This document shows, piece by piece, positions 8,350 to 42,264 of a DNA stretch of 64,000 nucleotides. The first letter of the stretch is position 1. The number at the start of each line of letters is the position of its first letter. Source of the DNA: Planctomycetota bacterium (lineage in GTDB: Bacteria > Planctomycetota > Phycisphaerae > UBA1845 > UTPLA1); assembly GCA_015654675.1 (NCBI GenBank), contig JAATGM010000034.1, positions 1 through 64,000 of the forward strand. The letters run 5' to 3'. The notes beneath the pieces are model-generated. The model saw only the letters and a program-made list of their open reading frames with translations. It searched no databases and was not told the origin of the DNA. A program made the position numbers and the translations under genes.

Positions 8350-8898
8350 CTACCCCAAAAGCGTCCGCGTCATCCAGACCGGCAAGTTCGCCCCGATCGA
8401 CGCCCCCGCAAATCGGTGAACCAGCCATAGCAATACGCCCGCATAGAAGCCCGAAATCATATCGTCGACAACGATGCCCCATCCCGCGCGCAGCGCCTGC
8501 GCCTGCCGCGCTGGAGGCGGCTTGATGATATCCAGCACTCTATTCAACAGAAATCCAATTAGCAGATAGATCAGCGATAAAGGCGCGAACGCCGCCGTCA
8601 GCGGCATCGACACTACTTCATCGATCACGACCTCGCCGGGATCCTTCTCTCCAAAAAACCGCTCGCCCCACGACGCAATCGGCACCGCAATCAAGCCCAG
8701 GCCCGCCAGCGCCGCCACCCGCAACGGCCATCCTGGAATCAGGTGAATCGCTGGTGCCAACAGCAGCCCGGGCAGCGTCCCGAACGTCCCCGAAGCAACC
8801 GGCGCCATCCCCAGCCCGCCGGCCGTCGTCAGAGCCCACATCAATCGCTCCGACAATCCTTGCGGAGACCGCGGCGCATGCTGATCGGACATCATCAT
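8350..8898 (-). CDS. pgpA: Phosphatidylglycerophosphatase A
   Basis: 182 aa. Carries the PgpA signatures GTFGTLPG (residues ~27-34), VVIDEVVSMPL and RVLDIIKPPPARQAQ...GWGIVVDDMISG, with four hydrophobic segments. Family role: removes phosphate from phosphatidylglycerol phosphate at the inner membrane, giving phosphatidylglycerol. The start is the first of three consecutive ATGs at 8898; the first overlaps the stop of the upstream M28 peptidase gene (ATGA), which points to translational coupling. The acidic active-site residues expected for the family (the DE of IDEVV and the DD of VVDDM) are present. Confidence 0.92.
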   Translation of the reverse strand: MMMSDQHAPRSPQGLSERLMWALTTAGGLGMAPVASGTFGTLPGLLLAPAIHLIPGWPLRVAALAGLGLIAVPIASWGERFFGEKDPGEVVIDEVVSMPLTAAFAPLSLIYLLIGFLLNRVLDIIKPPPARQAQALRAGWGIVVDDMISGFYAGVLLWLVHRFAGASIGANLPVWMTRTLLG

Positions 8899-10250
8899 TC
8901 CTTGGCCGGCCGCGCCGCCGCTGCCGGACTCCGATGCCCTGTCTTGTCCACAGCCCGCACGCCGAAGATCACGTTGTCCTTCGATAGCGGCAACGTCGTC
9001 TCCGTCACCCTTCCCACGCTCTTGCTCTGCTGCCAGCTTGGCGCGGTCGTCTCTCGCCACACGATCTCGTACCCCGCCAGGTCCGACTCGCCATTTGCGT
9101 CCCATCGCAGCGTCGTGTCATTCGTCAACTTCGCCGTGATGATCCGCACATTCCGCGGCGTAGCCGGCGCCCGCGCCAGACTCGCCAGCGAAACCAGGTT
9201 CGCCCGGCTCACGTTGGCGATGTAGTCGTAGTCGCAATGCTTCGGCCAGTCGCCGAATTCCCGCCCGCCTTCCACCCGCGGCGTCTGGTGCTGGTGATCA
9301 AAATTCTCCTCATACTCGGTAACGCGCACTGCCGGATATCCGCGCTCCACAAACGGAATGTGATCCCCGCCGCGCAAATATCGGTCTCGCCGGAATACCA
9401 TCTCAACATCAAATGCCGGCACGTATTCCGTCACTGTCTCGTCGATAAATCGCGCCAGCTGCCGCGACGCCGAGTCATTCTCGCTCCCGGTCAAGACTCG
9501 CAGCCGCGCCTCCTCCGCCGTTTGCGTAGTCGGCACGCCCTCCGAAAAAACGCGAACATGTCGCGATTGATCGATCCCGCTCGGCCCCCGGCTCGCCCCG
9601 ACAATATCATTCGTGAGCATCCCCGCCACGTTGGCGTTGCGTGCCTTGGCCGCCTCCGCCCAGTGCTTCGATCCCAGCAGCCCCTGCTCCTCGCCCGCAA
9701 CCGCCATGAACACAATGGGCGCATCGTGTGGGTAAGGGGCCAGCGCCCGCGCCGCCTCAATCACTGCCGCCACCCCGGAAGCATCGTCATCCGCCCCCGG
9801 CGCATCGCAATTCGGGTCCTTCGGGTCGTTGCACATCGAGTCGTAATGCCCGCTCACGACATAAATCCGCCCGGCCGATTCCGGCTGCGCCCCGCGCAGC
9901 GTCGCCACCACGTTCACGATCTCTGTCGGCCGCGTGACCCGATTTCCATCCGGCTCCTGTAGATACGAATCCATCTCCACCGTCATCCGACCGCCGGATG
10001 TCGCCGCGATCTTTTCGAACTCCGCCTGAATCCACCGCCGCGCTGCCCCAATCCCGCGCGTCGCGCTTTCCGTTTCCGACATCGTGTTCCGCGTCCCGAA
10101 CCCGGCCAGCGTTTCCACGGTGCGTTTGCAATTCTCAGCCCGCACGCCCGCCGACATCGCCGAGATCTCGTGATCGCTCCCGTTCCGGGCCGCGCAACCG
10201 CAACTCAGCGACGCGACCGCCGCGACGCACATCATCCGCGCTTTCATCAT
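8895..10250 (-). CDS. M28-family zinc aminopeptidase with fibronectin type III domain, lipoprotein
   Basis: 451 aa. The N-terminus (MMKARMMCVAAVASLSCGC) looks like a signal peptide with a lipobox, so it is probably an envelope lipoprotein. The metal ligands of M28 peptidases are all visible: SGHYDS (His), GADDDASG (bridging Asp), VAGEEQG (catalytic and metal Glu pair), LTNDIVG (Asp) and GGDHIPF (His). Residues ~360-451 form an Fn3 domain (PATPRNVRI ... FGVRAVDKTGHRSP). Role by family: removes N-terminal amino acids from peptides in the envelope or outside. It is coupled to pgpA by a 4-base overlap. Confidence 0.88.
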   Translation of the reverse strand: MMKARMMCVAAVASLSCGCAARNGSDHEISAMSAGVRAENCKRTVETLAGFGTRNTMSETESATRGIGAARRWIQAEFEKIAATSGGRMTVEMDSYLQEPDGNRVTRPTEIVNVVATLRGAQPESAGRIYVVSGHYDSMCNDPKDPNCDAPGADDDASGVAAVIEAARALAPYPHDAPIVFMAVAGEEQGLLGSKHWAEAAKARNANVAGMLTNDIVGASRGPSGIDQSRHVRVFSEGVPTTQTAEEARLRVLTGSENDSASRQLARFIDETVTEYVPAFDVEMVFRRDRYLRGGDHIPFVERGYPAVRVTEYEENFDHQHQTPRVEGGREFGDWPKHCDYDYIANVSRANLVSLASLARAPATPRNVRIITAKLTNDTTLRWDANGESDLAGYEIVWRETTAPSWQQSKSVGRVTETTLPLSKDNVIFGVRAVDKTGHRSPAAAARPAKE

Positions 10251-31483: not shown

Positions 31484-31623
31484 CTCGCTTCTCCTGAATG
31501 CCGCCGGAGTCTATCGCACTTCTCCCGCCGCAACCGTTGCAGCCGCCCGTGAGCGGGGTTCAAATCTCACGTTTCGCATGGGGCTCCGCAGGCGAGCGGT
31601 ACCCTGTCCTGCACGGAGAGATC

Positions 31624-34600
31624 ATGACCTTCCAACGAATCGCGACGGCACTCATCCTTTGCGCCGTCTCCGCAGCCCAAGCCGAGTTTCAGACCCCGAT
31701 CGCGATCACCAACGCCAAAATCATCACCTCCCCGGGAAAGGTCATTGATAGCGGCACCATCGTCATCGATCACGGCCGCATCACCGCCGTCGGTCCGAGC
31801 GTCGACATCCCCGCCAACGCCCAGCACATCGATGTCGGCGGAGCGATCGTCTACCCCGGCCTAATCGACGCCGCCTCCACCGCCGGAATCTCGACGGCCG
31901 ATGCCCCCGCCGAAGACCGCGCCCGCATCGACGATGAAAACCCCGACGTCCGCGACGGCCCGCAAGCCGCCACGGTCAAGGCCTACCGCCGCCTCGTCCA
32001 TCCGCATTGGCGAACTGAAGAACTAATCGATCCCGACGGTCTCAAGCGTGACCAGGCCCGCAGGAACGGATTCACCACCGCCCTCATCGCGCCGCGCCCC
32101 GCCATCTTCGGCGGCAACAGCGCCATTGTTGAAATGGGCGACCTCCCGCTCCGCCGCTCCCTCCTGAGAACCACCTTCGCGCAGCACGCGGCTTTCATCA
32201 CGGGCAACGAAACGCCCGACCTGCCCCCGATGGGCCCGCGCCCCGAACGCCAACCCGAGTACCCCACCACCACCATGGGCGCCATAGCCGCCTTCCGCCA
32301 GATTCTCCTCGACGCCCAATGGCAGCGCGATCTGCTCGCATGGGCCGACCGAAATCCAAAAGGCGAGCGCCCGCCGATCGACCGTGACCTGGAAGCCCTG
32401 CTCCCGCTGCTCGACAAGAAACAGTCTGTCGTCTTCATCGCCAACAGCGAAAACGAAATCCTCCGCGCCCTCAATTTGGCCAATGAATTCAACCTCAAAC
32501 CCATCATCGCCGGCGGCCGCGAGGCATGGAAATGCATCGAACGCCTCAAAAAAGACGACGTCCCCGTCATCGTCTCGCTCAAGTGGTCACAGGAACCCAA
32601 GCGCGCCGATCAGACCGACGAAGCCAAAGCCGCGACGACGCAGGAAGCCCTCCCGAACGACGACCGCCTCATCGCCGTCTTCGGCGAAAAGTGGCAGCAG
32701 CAACCCTGGGAGCCCCAGCGCCAGTTCGACGAGCGCACCCGCCTCTGGGGCGACGAAGTAGATAATCTCAAAAAACTTTCCGACGCCGGAATCCGCGTCG
32801 CGGTCGGCTCATTCGAAATGGATGCTCTACCCGACGTCTCAAAGAATCTCCGCTCCGCCTTCAAACGCGGCCTCACCGAAGACGCCGCACTCGCCGCCCT
32901 CACCAAAAACGCCGCCGCCATCCTCGGCCTCGATGCTGACCTCGGTGAAATCGCCCCCGGCAAACTCGCGAATCTGATCGTCCTGACGAAGCCAATCACC
33001 GACGAGAAGGCCAAAGTCCGCCTCGCCTTCGTCGAAGGCAAACCCTTCGACACCCTCGGCACCGGCCGCGACGACGACGAAAAAGGCAAAGGCAAGTGGA
33101 AAGGCCGCAACGGCGGACCTCCTTCTCCTCCGCCTCCCGCCGCCTCGACTCCCGCAACAACCAGCACCTCGCAACCCACCGACTGGCCCGACTACCGCGT
33201 CGAAATCGAAGCCGACCGTAAGCCCGCCCTCCAAACCGGTGGCAATCTGCTTATCAAAAATGCAAACGTGCTCACCGTCACGCAAGGCGACCAACCCGAA
33301 ACCGACCTGCTCATCTCGAACGGAAAAATCGAAAAGCTCGGCAAGAACTTAGTCGCCCCGCCCAACACCAAAACCATCGACCTCCGCGGCTACTACGTCA
33401 TCCCCGGCATCATCGACCCGCACTCCCACATGTGCTCCGACGGCGGACTCAACGAATTCGCACTCTCCATCACCAGCGAAGTCCGCGTCCGCGACGTCAT
33501 CGACCACAAAGACCTCGGCGCATACCGCGCCCTCGCCGGCGGCGTCACCGCCATCCACACCATGCACGGCTCCGCCAACGCCATGGGTGGCCAGAATGCC
33601 ACCCTCCGCCTCAAGTTCGGCAAGCCCGCCGCCGACTTCCTCTTCAAAGAGGCCCCCCGCTCCGTCAAATTCGCGCTTGGCGAAAACGTCAAGCAATCCA
33701 ACTTCGGCCGCCGCGGCTCACGCTTCCCTAACTCGCGTATGGGAGTCGAGGCCGTCATGCGCCGCGCCTTCGACGCAGCCCGCGAATACCGCCGCGATCA
33801 GAAACGCTTCTCCGACGAAAAAGCCGCCGGCAAAGACCCGCGCCCCGTCCGCAAAGACCTCCGCCTCGAAGCCCTCGCCGACATCATGGATGGCGCAATC
33901 TGGGTCCACTGCCATTGCTACCGCGCCGACGAAATCCTCCGCCTCCTCGCCGTCGCCGAAGACGCCGGCTTCCGCATCGCCGTCCTCCAGCATGTTCTGG
34001 AGGGCTACCGCATCATCCCCGAGATCCTCCGCCACGGTTGCGGCGCCTCCACCTTCTCCGACTGGTGGGGCTACAAGCTCGAGGCCTACGACGCCATCCC
34101 GCAGAACGCCGCTCGCCTAGAACAAGGCCACGTCGTCACCACCGTAAACTCAGACTCCGCCGAAATGATCCGCCACCTCAATCTGGAAGCCGCCAAGTCT
34201 CTCCACTTCGGCGGCCTGCCTGCCAACGAAGCTCTCAAACTCTGCACCCTCAACGGCGCGATCCAGCTCGGCGTCGACAAATACGTCGGCTCCATCGAAC
34301 TGGGCAAATTCGCCGACCTCGCCATCTTTAACGGCCACCCGCTCGACACCACCGCCCGCAACGTCATGACCCTCATCGACGGAGAATGCTACTTCCAAGA
34401 CCCCGTCCTGAACCTGGATGCCCCACCAACTCCGCGGCCAGCCCACGGCTTCGCGAAGCTCCAGATCCCCCCGGATTTCAGCAACTCCGGGCAAAATGGC
34501 ATCCTTTTCTCGAACGCAACCATCTTCCCGGTTACTGGCCAGCCGATCGAACACGGTAGCTTGTTAGTTCAGAACGGCATGGTCGCGTCGCTCAGCGCCA

Positions 34601-35766
34601 AATCGCAGGCAGGCGTAACCACCATCGACGCCACCGGCCTCCGCATCTACCCCGGCCTCATCAACGCCGCCACGGATCTCGGCCTCACCGAAATCGACTC
34701 CGTCCCCGGCAGCGTCGACGTCACCGACATCGGCCGCTTCGAACCCGACCTCTGCTCCGACTCCGCCTTTAACACCTTTGCGTCCGCCATAGAAGTCACA
34801 CGCGCCGAGGGCATCACCCACGCCCTCATCGTCCCCGGCGGCGGCTTCATCCCCGGCCGCGCCTCGCTCATGCGCCTCACCGGCTGGTCCATGCCCGAAG
34901 CCATTGTCGAGTCCAGCGTCGGCCTCTGCATGCGCCTCCCCTCGCTGCCGCCCGACCTCCACCTCATGAAGGACGAACCGCGCAAGCGCGTCCGCGAAGA
35001 CTTCGAAAAATCAATCACCGAGATCGACGCCTTCATGCAGCGCGCCAATGCCTACGCCGCTGCATCAGCCGCCGCGAAGTCCAACGCCGCCCTCGCCCCC
35101 GACTTCGACCGCCAACTCGATGCCATGCTCCCCTTTATCCGCGGCGAAAAACCGGTCCTCATGCACGCCAACTCCTTTAAGGAAATCCGCGAAGCCCTCC
35201 GCTTCTGCGAACTGTTCAAGCTCAAGCCGATCCTCGTCGGCGCTCGCGACTCATGGAAACTCGCCGACGAACTCGCCGCCAAGAAAATCGACGTCATCTT
35301 TGGCCGCGTCCAGCTCTACCCCGGCGCCGACTCCGAACCGTGGGACGCCGTCTACCGCGCCCCCGGCGTGCTCGCCCGCGCCGGCGTCCGCTTCTGCTTC
35401 GGCACCGAAAACTCCGACCTCGCCAAACTCCTCGGCGTGGAAGCCGGCATGGCCGTCGCGCATGGCCTCGACGAAGACCGCGCCATCCGCGCCCTCACCC
35501 TCGACGCCGCCCAGATCCTCGGCGTCGCTGATCGCCTCGGCTCCATCGAAGTCAGCAAGCCCGCCAACCTCATCATCTGCACCGACAGCCCGCTCCAGGC
35601 CGACAACGCTGTCATCGCCGAATTCATCGATGGCCGCCAAGTCGATCTAACCAGCAAGCACACCCGCACCGACGACAAATTCCGCGCCCGTCCGACCTCC
35701 ACCCTCCCCCCAGCCAAAGACTTGCGCGGCCCGCCGGCCATCCGCGTAACCGCCCCGCCGGCCTGA
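31624..35766 (+). CDS. Giant exported protein with three tandem amidohydrolase-family domains
   Basis: 1380 aa, starting at an ATG after GGAGAG. A signal peptide ends near AQAEFQTP. Domain 1 (~20-475) begins ITNAKIITSPGKVIDSGTIV. A Lys/Pro-rich linker (~485-530) follows. Domain 2 (~535-925) has NLLIKNANVLTV, PGIIDPHSHMC (His600, His602), IWVHCHCY, LQHVLEG and TVNSDSAE, a full metal-binding set. Domain 3 (~955-1350) begins ILFSNATIFPVTG. In domains 1 and 3 the metal motif after PGLI reads DAASTAG and NAATDLG, so the H-x-H is gone. Only the middle domain looks catalytic. Substrate unknown; imidazolonepropionase-like hydrolases are the closest relatives I recognise. Confidence 0.85.
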   Translation: MTFQRIATALILCAVSAAQAEFQTPIAITNAKIITSPGKVIDSGTIVIDHGRITAVGPSVDIPANAQHIDVGGAIVYPGLIDAASTAGISTADAPAEDRARIDDENPDVRDGPQAATVKAYRRLVHPHWRTEELIDPDGLKRDQARRNGFTTALIAPRPAIFGGNSAIVEMGDLPLRRSLLRTTFAQHAAFITGNETPDLPPMGPRPERQPEYPTTTMGAIAAFRQILLDAQWQRDLLAWADRNPKGERPPIDRDLEALLPLLDKKQSVVFIANSENEILRALNLANEFNLKPIIAGGREAWKCIERLKKDDVPVIVSLKWSQEPKRADQTDEAKAATTQEALPNDDRLIAVFGEKWQQQPWEPQRQFDERTRLWGDEVDNLKKLSDAGIRVAVGSFEMDALPDVSKNLRSAFKRGLTEDAALAALTKNAAAILGLDADLGEIAPGKLANLIVLTKPITDEKAKVRLAFVEGKPFDTLGTGRDDDEKGKGKWKGRNGGPPSPPPPAASTPATTSTSQPTDWPDYRVEIEADRKPALQTGGNLLIKNANVLTVTQGDQPETDLLISNGKIEKLGKNLVAPPNTKTIDLRGYYVIPGIIDPHSHMCSDGGLNEFALSITSEVRVRDVIDHKDLGAYRALAGGVTAIHTMHGSANAMGGQNATLRLKFGKPAADFLFKEAPRSVKFALGENVKQSNFGRRGSRFPNSRMGVEAVMRRAFDAAREYRRDQKRFSDEKAAGKDPRPVRKDLRLEALADIMDGAIWVHCHCYRADEILRLLAVAEDAGFRIAVLQHVLEGYRIIPEILRHGCGASTFSDWWGYKLEAYDAIPQNAARLEQGHVVTTVNSDSAEMIRHLNLEAAKSLHFGGLPANEALKLCTLNGAIQLGVDKYVGSIELGKFADLAIFNGHPLDTTARNVMTLIDGECYFQDPVLNLDAPPTPRPAHGFAKLQIPPDFSNSGQNGILFSNATIFPVTGQPIEHGSLLVQNGMVASLSAKSQAGVTTIDATGLRIYPGLINAATDLGLTEIDSVPGSVDVTDIGRFEPDLCSDSAFNTFASAIEVTRAEGITHALIVPGGGFIPGRASLMRLTGWSMPEAIVESSVGLCMRLPSLPPDLHLMKDEPRKRVREDFEKSITEIDAFMQRANAYAAASAAAKSNAALAPDFDRQLDAMLPFIRGEKPVLMHANSFKEIREALRFCELFKLKPILVGARDSWKLADELAAKKIDVIFGRVQLYPGADSEPWDAVYRAPGVLARAGVRFCFGTENSDLAKLLGVEAGMAVAHGLDEDRAIRALTLDAAQILGVADRLGSIEVSKPANLIICTDSPLQADNAVIAEFIDGRQVDLTSKHTRTDDKFRARPTSTLPPAKDLRGPPAIRVTAPPA

Positions 35767-36022: not shown

Positions 36023-37894
36023 ATGGGAAAAATGGACACCGTCAAGCAACGTCAGGTACAGAATCAGGAACTCGAGGAAGTCTCCGTTCGCTTCTGCGGC
36101 GACTCGGGCGACGGCATGCAGCTCGTCGGCACCCAGTTCACCAACGCGTCCGCCATCTTCGGCAACGACGTCAGCACCTTCCCCGACTTCCCCGCCGAAA
36201 TCCGCGCCCCAGCCGGAACCCTGGCTGGCGTCAGCGGCTTCCAGATCAACTTCTCCAGCCACGACATCCATACCCCGGGCGATCGCGTCAATGCCCTCAT
36301 CGCGATGAATCCCGCCGCCCTGAAGACCAACGTGAAGGATGTCGAAACCGGCGGAATCGTCATCGTCAACGAAGACGCCTTCGACAAGTCCGACCTGCAG
36401 AAGGCCGGCTACGCCGTGAACCCGCTCGACGACGGCTCGCTCTCGAAATACCAGCTCTATCGCGTCCCGATCGAAAAGCTCAACGCCGATGCCCTCAAGG
36501 ACATCGCCGGCGAGATCGGCGCCAAGTCCGTCGGCCGCTGCAAAAACTTCTTCGCCCTCGGCATCGCCGCCTGGCTCTACAATCGGCCGCTCCAACCCAC
36601 GCTCGATTGGATCAACGGTAAGTTCGGCAGCAAACCGACCATTGCCGACGCCAACACTCGCGCGCTGAAGGCCGGCTACTACTACGGCGAAACCGCCGAG
36701 CTTTTCCCCACGCGCTACAAAGTCGCCAAGGCAAAGCTCACGCCCGGCAAGTACCGCAAAATCACCGGCAACGAAGCCCTCGCCTTGGGCCTCGTCACCG
36801 CCGCGGATCTGGCCCAGACGCCCCTGCTCTACGCCTCATATCCCATCACGCCGGCCAGCGACATCTTGCACATGCTCTCCGGCTACAAGAATTACGGCAT
36901 CAAGACTTTCCAGGCCGAGGACGAAATCGCCGCCGTAACCGCGGCAATCGGCGCCAGTTTCGCCGGAGTCATCGGCGTCACCGGCACCAGCGGTCCCGGC
37001 ATGGCTCTCAAGACCGAAGCCCTCGGCCTCGCCGTCATGACCGAGCTCCCGCTCGTCTGTGTCGACGTGCAGCGCGGCGGCCCCAGCACCGGCCTCCCGA
37101 CCAAAACCGAGCAAGCCGACCTGCTTCAGGCAGTCGTCGGCCGCAATGGCGAATGCCCCCTCTGCGTCATCGCCGCCCGCTCGCCGGGCGACTGTTTCGA
37201 CATGGCCATCTGGGCCGTGCGAATCGCGACTCGCTTCATGGTCCCGGTCATTCTTCTGACGGACGGCTACATCGGAAACGGTGCGGAACCGTGGATCCTC
37301 CCCGACCCGTCGAAGTTCGAGAAAATCAAGATCAACCACCCAGAAAAGGCCGAAAATGGCGACTTCCACGCCTACGCCCGCGACGAATTCCTCGCTCGCC
37401 CCTGGGCCGTTCCCGGCACGAAGGGTCTCGAACACCGCATCGGCGGCCTCGAAAAAGAAAACATCACCGGCCACATCAGCTATGACCCGCAGAATCACCA
37501 ATTCATGATCGACCTGCGGGCCCAGAAAGTGGCCAACATCGCGAAGATCCTTCCCCCGCTCGAAGTCGACGGTCCGCAATCCGGCGACCTGCTCGTCCTC
37601 GGCTGGGGCGGAACATATGGTTCGATTTACAGCGCCGCCGAGCGCGCTCGCGCCATGGGCTACAACATCTCGAACGCCCATCTTCAGTTCATGAACCCAT
37701 TCCCGTCCAACCTCGGCGACGTCCTCAAGAAGTTCAAGAAAGTGCTGATTCCCGAACTCAACAGCGGCCAGCTACGCAAGCTCATCCGCGCCGAGTTCCT
37801 CATCGATGCGATCGGCTTCAACAAGGTCCAGGGCAAGCCCTTCCTGATCGCCGAACTCCTCGAAAAAATCATCCAGCATTCGGAGAAGAGGTAA
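36023..37894 (+). CDS. korA: 2-oxoacid:ferredoxin oxidoreductase, fused gamma-alpha subunit
   Basis: 623 aa; the start is either the ATG at 36023 or the in-frame ATG at 36032, which follows GGGAAAA. Residues ~15-200 are the gamma domain ([18 protein letters not shown]). Residues ~250-600 are the alpha domain ([75 protein letters not shown]). Fused gamma-alpha is the usual form of KorA. With KorB it oxidatively decarboxylates 2-oxoglutarate (or a related 2-oxoacid) to acyl-CoA, reducing ferredoxin. korB follows eight bases downstream. Confidence 0.92.
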
Positions 37895-37901
37895 TACCAA
37901 C

Positions 37902-38924
<1,023 letters not shown>

Positions 38925-41361: not shown

Positions 41362-42264
41362 GTGGACAGTCCCACTCTGAAATTATTGATTTCTCGGCTG
41401 CGCCAGCACGTCGATCGCCTCGCCGGCCTCATCGGCCCACGCCACATCGGAAAGCCGTCGTCTCTGGAAGCCGCAGCCAACCTGATCGAGCACGAGTTCG
41501 CTCAACTCGGCGACTCGATCGAGCGCCATACATTCGATGCCGGCGACCGCCCCGCGACCAACCTTGTCATCCAGCGAAATGGCTCGCGTGCCCCCGAAGA
41601 GTGCGTCATCCTCGCGGCTCACTACGACACGATCCCCGAAACGCCCGGCGCCGACGACAACGCCTCGGCCGTCGCCGTCATGATCGAGGTCGCGCGCCTC
41701 CTTAGCGAACATCGCTTCCGTCGCACAATTCGCTATGTCGCACTCACGAATGAAGAGTGGCCGCACTTCGCCACGGAAAGCATGGGTAGCATCGCCTACG
41801 CCCGCCGCTGCCGCCAGCGCAACGAGTGCATCCATGCCATGCTCTGCCTCGAAATGGTCGGCTACTTCACCAACGAACCCGCCAGCCAGCAGATCCCACC
41901 GGGCATTCCGCGCGCACTGCGCTGCGCCTTCCCCGGTCGCGGCAACTTCCTGGCCGCCGTCGGCAACCTCGCATCCTGGCGGCTCCACTGGCCATTCCGC
42001 CGCGGCTTCAAATCCGCGACGCGCTTCCCGCTCTACTCAATCTCGCTCCCCGAAAAAATCTCCGCCATCCGGCTCTCCGACAACAGCTCCTTCTGGGACC
42101 AGGGCTACCCCGCCCTCATGCTGACCGACACCAGCTTTCTGCGAAATCCACATTACCACCTGCCCACCGATACCCCCGAGACACTCGACTACACCGCCAT
42201 GGCCGAAGTTGCCCTCGGCATTGCCGGCGGCCTCGCGCGACTCGCCATTCCCGACACTCGATGA
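41362..42264 (+). CDS. M28-family zinc peptidase
   Basis: 300 aa from a GTG. No signal peptide is evident, so a cytoplasmic location is likely, unlike the M28 lipoprotein at 8895-10250. Metal ligands: LAAHYDTI (His), PGADDNASAVAV (bridging Asp), LTNEEWPHF (Glu pair), LCLEMVGYF (Glu) and NPHYHLPTDTPE (His). It should cleave N-terminal residues from peptides. The gap to the PEP-CTERM gene is 35 bases on the same strand. Confidence 0.85.
   Translation: MDSPTLKLLISRLRQHVDRLAGLIGPRHIGKPSSLEAAANLIEHEFAQLGDSIERHTFDAGDRPATNLVIQRNGSRAPEECVILAAHYDTIPETPGADDNASAVAVMIEVARLLSEHRFRRTIRYVALTNEEWPHFATESMGSIAYARRCRQRNECIHAMLCLEMVGYFTNEPASQQIPPGIPRALRCAFPGRGNFLAAVGNLASWRLHWPFRRGFKSATRFPLYSISLPEKISAIRLSDNSSFWDQGYPALMLTDTSFLRNPHYHLPTDTPETLDYTAMAEVALGIAGGLARLAIPDTR

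Follow-up and report, generated by a model that had tools for sequence, protein, structure and literature searches.

A widespread amidohydrolase set of one catalytic-type barrel and two pseudo-barrels, found as a single fused chain in a Planctomycetota bacterium

A 64,000-nucleotide stretch of contig JAATGM010000034.1 from a Planctomycetota bacterium (the window) carries, at positions 31624-35766 of the forward strand, a gene for a protein with three amidohydrolase barrels, which we term D1, D2 and D3 for the first, middle and third barrel. The findings reported below make it likely that this protein is an exported metallohydrolase in which one catalytic barrel, D2, is served by two obligate non-catalytic barrels, D1 and D3. 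Judged by its residues, D2 has what a two-metal amidohydrolase of subtype I needs, while D1 and D3 lack the residues needed for metal binding of the subtype I kind, yet have been retained alongside D2. Inheritance of the three modules is joint, whether they are encoded by one, two or three genes. Since related bacteria keep the same three parts in all of these forms, the dead barrels have probably become permanent companions of the live one and are unlikely to be remnants in decay. Their reading as obligate structural partners is based on this retention with D2 and on the precedents of pDHO and AibH1, which are discussed below.

The interval 31624-35766 given in the first-pass annotation, which had been made from the sequence alone, proved to run exactly from ATG to stop of a single open frame, and both inner segments that it had quoted for the outer barrels could be placed in the translation. 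An alternative ATG lies upstream at 31498 and would give a product of 1422 residues. ATG 31624 is favoured because GGAGA precedes it and because a typical signal peptide, read by eye, begins there. The features of the gene are as follows.

31624..35766, + strand: coding sequence for three amidohydrolase barrels, 1380 residues (open reading frame translation; full-length homologs)
31615..31619, + strand: GGAGA, Shine-Dalgarno-like, directly 5' of ATG 31624 (read from the sequence)
31624..31683, + strand: predicted Sec signal peptide, residues 1-20, with a cleavage-like site between AQA and EF (translation read by eye)
31687..33063, + strand: D1, pseudo-barrel 1, residues 22-480 (predicted fold, structure match, profile alignment)
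32443..32502, + strand: D1 inner segment NSENEILRALNLANEFNLKP, residues 274-293 (located in the translation)
33064..33201, + strand: flexible D1-D2 linker, residues 481-526 (predicted local distance difference test, pLDDT, below 50 over residues 480-516)
33229..34413, + strand: D2, catalytic-type barrel, residues 536-930 (Pfam Amidohydro_1 and 3ooq_A structure match)
33421..33429, + strand: D2 metal motif H600-S-H602 (domain alignment, profile alignment)
33667..33669, + strand: D2 Lys682 on predicted strand 4, candidate carboxylated bridging lysine (alignment, model)
33913..33915, + strand: D2 His764, end of strand 5 (alignment, model)
33991..33993, + strand: D2 His790, past strand 6 (alignment, model)
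34153..34155, + strand: D2 Asp844, past strand 8 (alignment, model)
34486..35709, + strand: D3, pseudo-barrel 2, residues 955-1362 (predicted fold, structure match, profile alignment)
35170..35229, + strand: D3 inner segment NSFKEIREALRFCELFKLKP, residues 1183-1202 (located in the translation)

Metal ligands and predicted folds of the three barrels

In subtype I amidohydrolases, two metals are bridged by a carboxylated lysine that is located on strand 4. The first-pass annotation had assigned a metal site to the middle barrel only, listing H-S-H, the later His residues and the Asp. All of these residues are indeed present in D2, but Lys682 was missing from the list. D2 thereby carries HxH, His, His and Asp of the superfamily at strands 1, 5, 6 and 8 as well as the strand-4 Lys of subtype I. 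The six ligands (H600, H602, K682, H764, H790 and D844) are invariant in 20 diverse three-barrel chains, and 134 of 136 aligned D2 domains hold all of them. His600 and His602 occur in 135 of the 136 rows, the remaining row having a gap; Lys682, which lies on a predicted strand spanning residues 679-684, also occurs in 135, the remaining row having an X; and H764, H790 and D844 are each present in all 136. It should be noted that these and the following row counts include near-duplicates, a few genomes having been drawn from two collections; the thinned sets comprise 109, 117 and 121 rows for D1, D2 and D3, respectively.

The equivalent positions in the outer barrels were obtained by profile-profile alignment, which gave a probability of 100% for both barrels and agreed with the strand ends in the D1-D2 model. 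They are occupied by A84, T86, A190, I272, G297 and F397 in D1, and by A1016, D1018, C1102, H1181, G1206 and E1262 in D3. Even with a slack of one residue, no domain retained more than three of the six ligands: 0, 1, 2 or 3 were left in 64, 42, 11 and 3 of 120 D1 domains, and in 59, 64, 9 and 2 of 134 D3 domains. The strand-6 His was absent from every one of these D1 and D3 domains, its place being taken by Gly in 99 of the D1 and 126 of the D3 domains. HxH was retained in no D3 and in 4 D1 rows out of the 107 that have letters at this place; two of these four rows (L044 and L068) seem to stem from a single genome that was drawn twice. The His at the strand-5 position of the present D3, H1181, is found in just 30 of 134 D3 domains, and a His at the strand-4 position in 49. 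No alternative metal ligand is conserved in D1 or D3 at the 75% level, which leaves the earlier claim of lost metal sites standing. At this level, neither His nor Cys is conserved in the thinned D1 set, and D3 has a single His column, 968, which lies in the N-terminal strand region and is Phe in the present protein. Columns conserved to at least 75% in the thinned sets number 53 in D1, 134 in D2 and 79 in D3; in the loop past strand 1 of D3, the acids E1023 and D1032 are conserved to 97% and 98%. The ligand loss in D1 and D3 is not a matter of chance, because each loss holds family-wide while D2 is intact. D1 and D3 thus do not hold the ligand set of a catalytic member of the superfamily.

D1, D2 and D3 all have the barrel fold of the amidohydrolase superfamily according to structure and Pfam matches. 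AlphaFold was run on D1-D2 and D2-D3 as separate pieces, giving models with a mean pLDDT of 90.3 and a predicted template modelling score (pTM) of 0.91 for D1-D2, and of 95.2 and 0.94 for D2-D3. The weak spots of both models were confined to the D1-D2 linker and a few loops. Each of D1, D2 and D3 was modelled as a barrel plus a small beta domain, and the three barrels expected from the first-pass annotation were thereby recovered, D1 being packed confidently on D2 and D2 on D3. Within both pairs, the packing is predicted to have a fixed orientation. The best structural matches were 3ooq_A for D2 (Z 45.2, root-mean-square deviation (rmsd) 1.9 over 374 residues), 3feq_J for D3 (Z 24.9, rmsd 3.5 over 296 residues) and NagA 6jku_D for D1 (Z 21.6, rmsd 3.4 over 275 residues). 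The Pfam family PF01979 (Amidohydro_1, cut-off 25) matched D2 with 72.3 bits, and D1 and D3 with 44.6 and 44.0 bits.

A known function was also sought through family models. This was given up, since every NCBIfam match listed with a cut-off fell far short of it: the whole protein scored 121.5 bits against a cut-off of 500 for Xaa-Pro dipeptidase (NF051886), 84.2 against 225.65 for NagA (TIGR00221) and 89.1 against 298.15 for HutI (TIGR01224). The family libraries that were run placed the catalytic part only in generic amidohydrolase families.

Co-occurrence, fusion states and export signals

To what extent the modules occur together was determined in samples of 148 Bacteroidota and 149 Planctomycetota genomes, which provide a fairer test than loci ranked on the whole query. 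Among the Bacteroidota, with presence scored at E<=1e-100 for D2, E<=1e-80 for D1 and E<=1e-90 for D3, D2 was present in 86 genomes, D1 in 86 and D3 in 85; all three modules were present in 85 genomes, none in 62, and D1 and D2 only in a single one, G468. The locus of this genome (L171, G468:C2:1908000-1920000) contains a long run of N that starts inside D2. An apparent giant fusion of 2531 residues in G468 is doubtful, as its frame passes through this N stretch. Among the Planctomycetota, D2 was found in 48 genomes, D3 in 47, both in 46, and D1, at E<=1e-80, in 38. D2 occurred without D3 in 2 of these genomes, in one of which (G084) a D3-like match is split across two frames, and D3 and D1 occurred without D2 in 1. 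The first-pass annotation had called the arrangement unusual, and this is true of the fused chain, but not of the three-part set, which is common in both samples. Three Verrucomicrobiota loci with D1-D2 and no local D3 (L121, L127 and L138) were found to have D3 on another contig of the same genome.

The organisation of the genes was analysed by scoring fetched loci with profiles of each of the three modules, and the count was restricted to loci that hold all three modules and are not truncated by the end of a contig. With a hyphen denoting fusion in one gene and a slash denoting separate genes, the 104 non-redundant complete loci comprised 56 D1-D2-D3, 20 D1-D2/D3, 13 D1/D2/D3, 10 D1/D2-D3 and 4 D2-D3/D1 loci, and 1 D1/D2-D3/D3 locus with an extra D3. 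At least 15 architecture changes are required on the D2 tree of these loci. For example, the set is a single gene in Singulisphaera acidiphila (L072), D1-D2/D3 in Robertkochia sediminum (L131), and three genes in Algoriphagus lacus (L090) and Roseivirga spongicola (L101). Two loci have deviating layouts. In Neorhodopirellula pilleata (L099), the first barrel of a 1116-residue chain scores as D3 and not as D1, and a separate D3 gene follows; this first barrel is perhaps a diverged D1. In L110, D2 was matched in two pieces and D1 is a separate gene downstream.

The 80 named loci came out on top among 591 confirmed stretches when the whole query was used for ranking, and they are therefore biased towards complete sets. 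The nearest named relatives are mostly Planctomycetota, and many are metagenome assemblies. Altogether, the named loci cover Planctomycetota, Hydrogenedentota, Acidobacteriota, Bacteroidota, Balneolota, Verrucomicrobiota, Gemmatimonadota, Zixiibacteriota, Armatimonadota, Actinomycetota and Pseudomonadota, as taken from record titles and in some cases via the tree, so that some metagenome labels may be wrong. The loss of ligands in D1 and D3 thus spans many phyla and reaches beyond the planctomycetes, the group in which the first-pass annotation had proposed to look for it. The source genome is an assembly of 4.93 Mb in 62 contigs, and the existence of full-length relatives in many genomes rules out an assembly or annotation artefact as the origin of the three-barrel chain.

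Signal-like N-termini, defined by a basic start and a hydrophobic stretch, were found for all three modules. Among separate genes, they were present in 24 of 25 for D1, 11 of 14 for D2 and 29 of 36 for D3; among fused genes, in 22 of 24 for D1-D2, 7 of 11 for D2-D3 and 17 of 20 for D1-D2-D3. In the Bacteroidota three-gene sets that were inspected, Gln is commonly the next residue past the cleavage-like site in all three subunits. A Gln at this place is expected of exported Bacteroidota proteins under the Q-rule (PMC10653852).

Phylogeny of the pseudo-barrels

The first-pass annotation had described D1 and D3 as a duplicated pair around a catalytic barrel and had proposed a domain-wise phylogeny, which bore out this description. 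The trees also included B' and C', the products of adjacent paralogous genes of the source genome (G000:C22:5039-7593; L002, L003 and L160), a pair that is found in relatives as well. In the source genome, B' retains the ligands and C' does not. In a tree of 119 domains, D1, D2, D3, B' and C' each formed one clade, with values of 98-100 in the Shimodaira-Hasegawa-like approximate likelihood ratio test (SH-aLRT). D1 and D3 were sisters (98) and were joined by C' (99). When this tree was rooted on three other amidohydrolases of the source genome, which have long branches, the pseudo-barrels nested within the active barrels. A smaller, careful tree separated {D1,D3,C'} from {D2,B'} with support of 100/97 and united {D1,D3} with 100/99. 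Because D1 and D3 are each other's closest relatives in a single pseudo-barrel clade to which C' also belongs, the simplest history is that the metal site was probably lost once, after which the pseudo-barrel was duplicated into D1 and D3. A separate observation concerns the 948-residue open reading frame of L161 (G152:C1), in which an active-type and a pseudo-type barrel are fused and the halves group with B' and C'.

The three subtrees agree in several groupings across phyla: a Pseudohongiella record is placed with Bacteroidota, one from the Acidobacteria with one from the Gemmatimonadetes, and one from the Hydrogenedentota with the group of the present protein. Such agreement would be expected of a set that moves as one.

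Proposed role and comparison with known systems

We propose that the three-barrel protein would be exported through Sec to the periplasm, and that D1, D2 and D3 would form a 1:1:1 assembly, the stoichiometry of which would be fixed by gene fusion where this is present. D1 and D3 may stand in for what were neighbouring subunits in an ancestral homo-oligomer, thereby stabilising D2 and holding it in the active form. They may also shape the entrance or wall of the D2 active site and so, probably, the access to it. D2 would hydrolyse an amide or peptide-like bond by means of a two-metal centre. The substrate could be a periplasmic amide or peptide-like compound, which is a guess by analogy that we make with low confidence, because many structural neighbours are dipeptidases, carboxypeptidases and deacetylases. 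A broader reading, which we consider to have an even chance of being correct, is that the set represents a widespread and apparently undescribed exported complex in which D2 needs both pseudo-barrels to complete its active-site chamber, and which arose through one loss and a later duplication. The family would then be a staged one, leading from an active barrel via an active barrel with one dead partner and an active barrel with two dead partners to the single fused chain.

Several points weigh against the proposal of two obligate partners. A single-chain pTM is no proof of assembly, and the step in which D1 and D3 replace neighbouring subunits is drawn by analogy. Furthermore, D1 is not universal, being missing at E<=1e-80 in 11 of the 48 Planctomycetota with D2. 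Five of these 11 genomes (G013, G063, G074, G128 and G140) have a weaker, partial or contig-cut D1 match, and two (G042 and G117) fall in neither class. The remaining four (G020, G052, G084 and G090) have a divergent D2 of 389-497 bits and no D1 beside it, and for this reason sets of D2 and D3 without D1 may exist. Lastly, the flanks of the 80 named loci yielded no conserved gene neighbour that would point to the substrate: when the flank frames were clustered, no outside family occurred in more than 6 loci, and the recurring families mostly track close relatives. Gene neighbourhood was therefore dropped as a clue to the substrate.

The view that the extra barrels are decaying copies without function accounts for their lost metal sites. 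This view is hardly credible in the face of confident predicted folds, open frames, conserved columns that suggest purifying selection on D1 and D3, and modules that have stayed together in many phyla despite at least 15 changes of architecture. From H1181 and from the His at the strand-4 position of some D3 domains, it might be argued that D1 and D3 carry out catalysis with other residues or with a different metal site. We regard this as very improbable, since a metal-type residue set is conserved in neither family and the strand-6 His occurs in none of their members. It is likewise unlikely, though less so, that D1 and/or D3 have become regulatory barrels, in which a small ligand occupies the former active-site pocket and thereby switches D2. 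The Gly at strand 6 could open such a pocket, but the retained set of polar residues is small and differs between D1 and D3.

The substrate-holding cage suggested in the first-pass annotation amounts to a sharper form of our preferred explanation. Here D1 and D3 would close over the active site of D2 to hold the substrate or select it, and this substrate might be a polymer or a long peptide. The predicted packing of two pseudo-barrels on one catalytic barrel and the conserved acids E1023 and D1032 of D3 are consistent with this idea. Yet conserved polar residues and conserved columns are few in D1, so that a precise binding pocket in this barrel is not suggested, and we consider the cage possible but rather doubtful.

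Pseudo-amidohydrolase partners as such are of an already known kind. According to PMC7053772, pDHO is an inactive dihydroorotase chain that is necessary for the activity of the Pseudomonas aeruginosa aspartate transcarbamoylase (ATCase). It is an inactive chain of the amidohydrolase fold on which the activity and stability of a partner depend, as we propose for D1 and D3. Its partner is a transcarbamoylase, whereas D1 and D3 accompany an amidohydrolase as two pseudo-barrels that are often fused to it. A transcarbamoylase was not sought as such at the named loci, but any one third family was shared by the flanks of at most 6 of the 80. AibH1H2 is described in PMC12141560 as a heterodimer with a catalytic subunit that is structurally homologous to a hydroxylase, itself repurposed from the amidohydrolase superfamily. 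It resembles the arrangement proposed for D1-D2-D3 in combining a catalytic subunit with a partner that has a structural role, but this partner still binds metal, and the family and chemistry are different.

By sequence, the closest solved chain to all three barrels is 3ooq, an amidohydrolase of Thermotoga maritima (E-values of 1e-47 for the whole protein, aligned on D2, 7e-34 for D3 and 4e-17 for D1). It consists of a single active-type barrel of 396 residues, as opposed to the three barrels seen here, and a paper on its structure was not found in open-licence PubMed Central. The peptidase-like amidohydrolases that are structural neighbours of D2 and D3 (the prolidases 3feq and 3n2c, the Lys/Arg carboxypeptidase 3mtw and isoaspartyl dipeptidase) differ in being single catalytic chains, and their identity is low. 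The B'-C' pair (G000:C22) likewise sets an active-type barrel beside a pseudo-barrel of the D1/D3 clade, but has two genes and one pseudo-barrel and is a separate paralog. No description of a three-barrel or one-plus-two amidohydrolase set was found among open-licence PubMed Central titles and abstract starts, which is weak evidence. Within that literature, the combination of one active barrel and two pseudo-barrels, in every fusion state and widespread, appears to be new.

Elsewhere in the window, two adjacent frames downstream of the gene (36023-38924) resemble, by eye, the alpha and beta subunits of a 2-oxoacid:ferredoxin oxidoreductase, with no sign of a link to the three-barrel gene. Two further frames (41362-42264 and 8895-10250) resemble zinc-dependent M28-type peptidases, also by eye.

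The catalytic part of this set is present in more than half of the sampled Bacteroidota genomes and in about a third of the sampled Planctomycetota genomes. Annotation pipelines should also take into account that a protein matching D1 or D3 is not a metallohydrolase. How dead copies of an enzyme turn into permanent companions of a live one can be tested cleanly on the fusion states that nature provides, since the three parts can be expressed one by one, as in the Algoriphagus type, in pairs or as a fusion, and each pseudo-barrel can be removed in turn.

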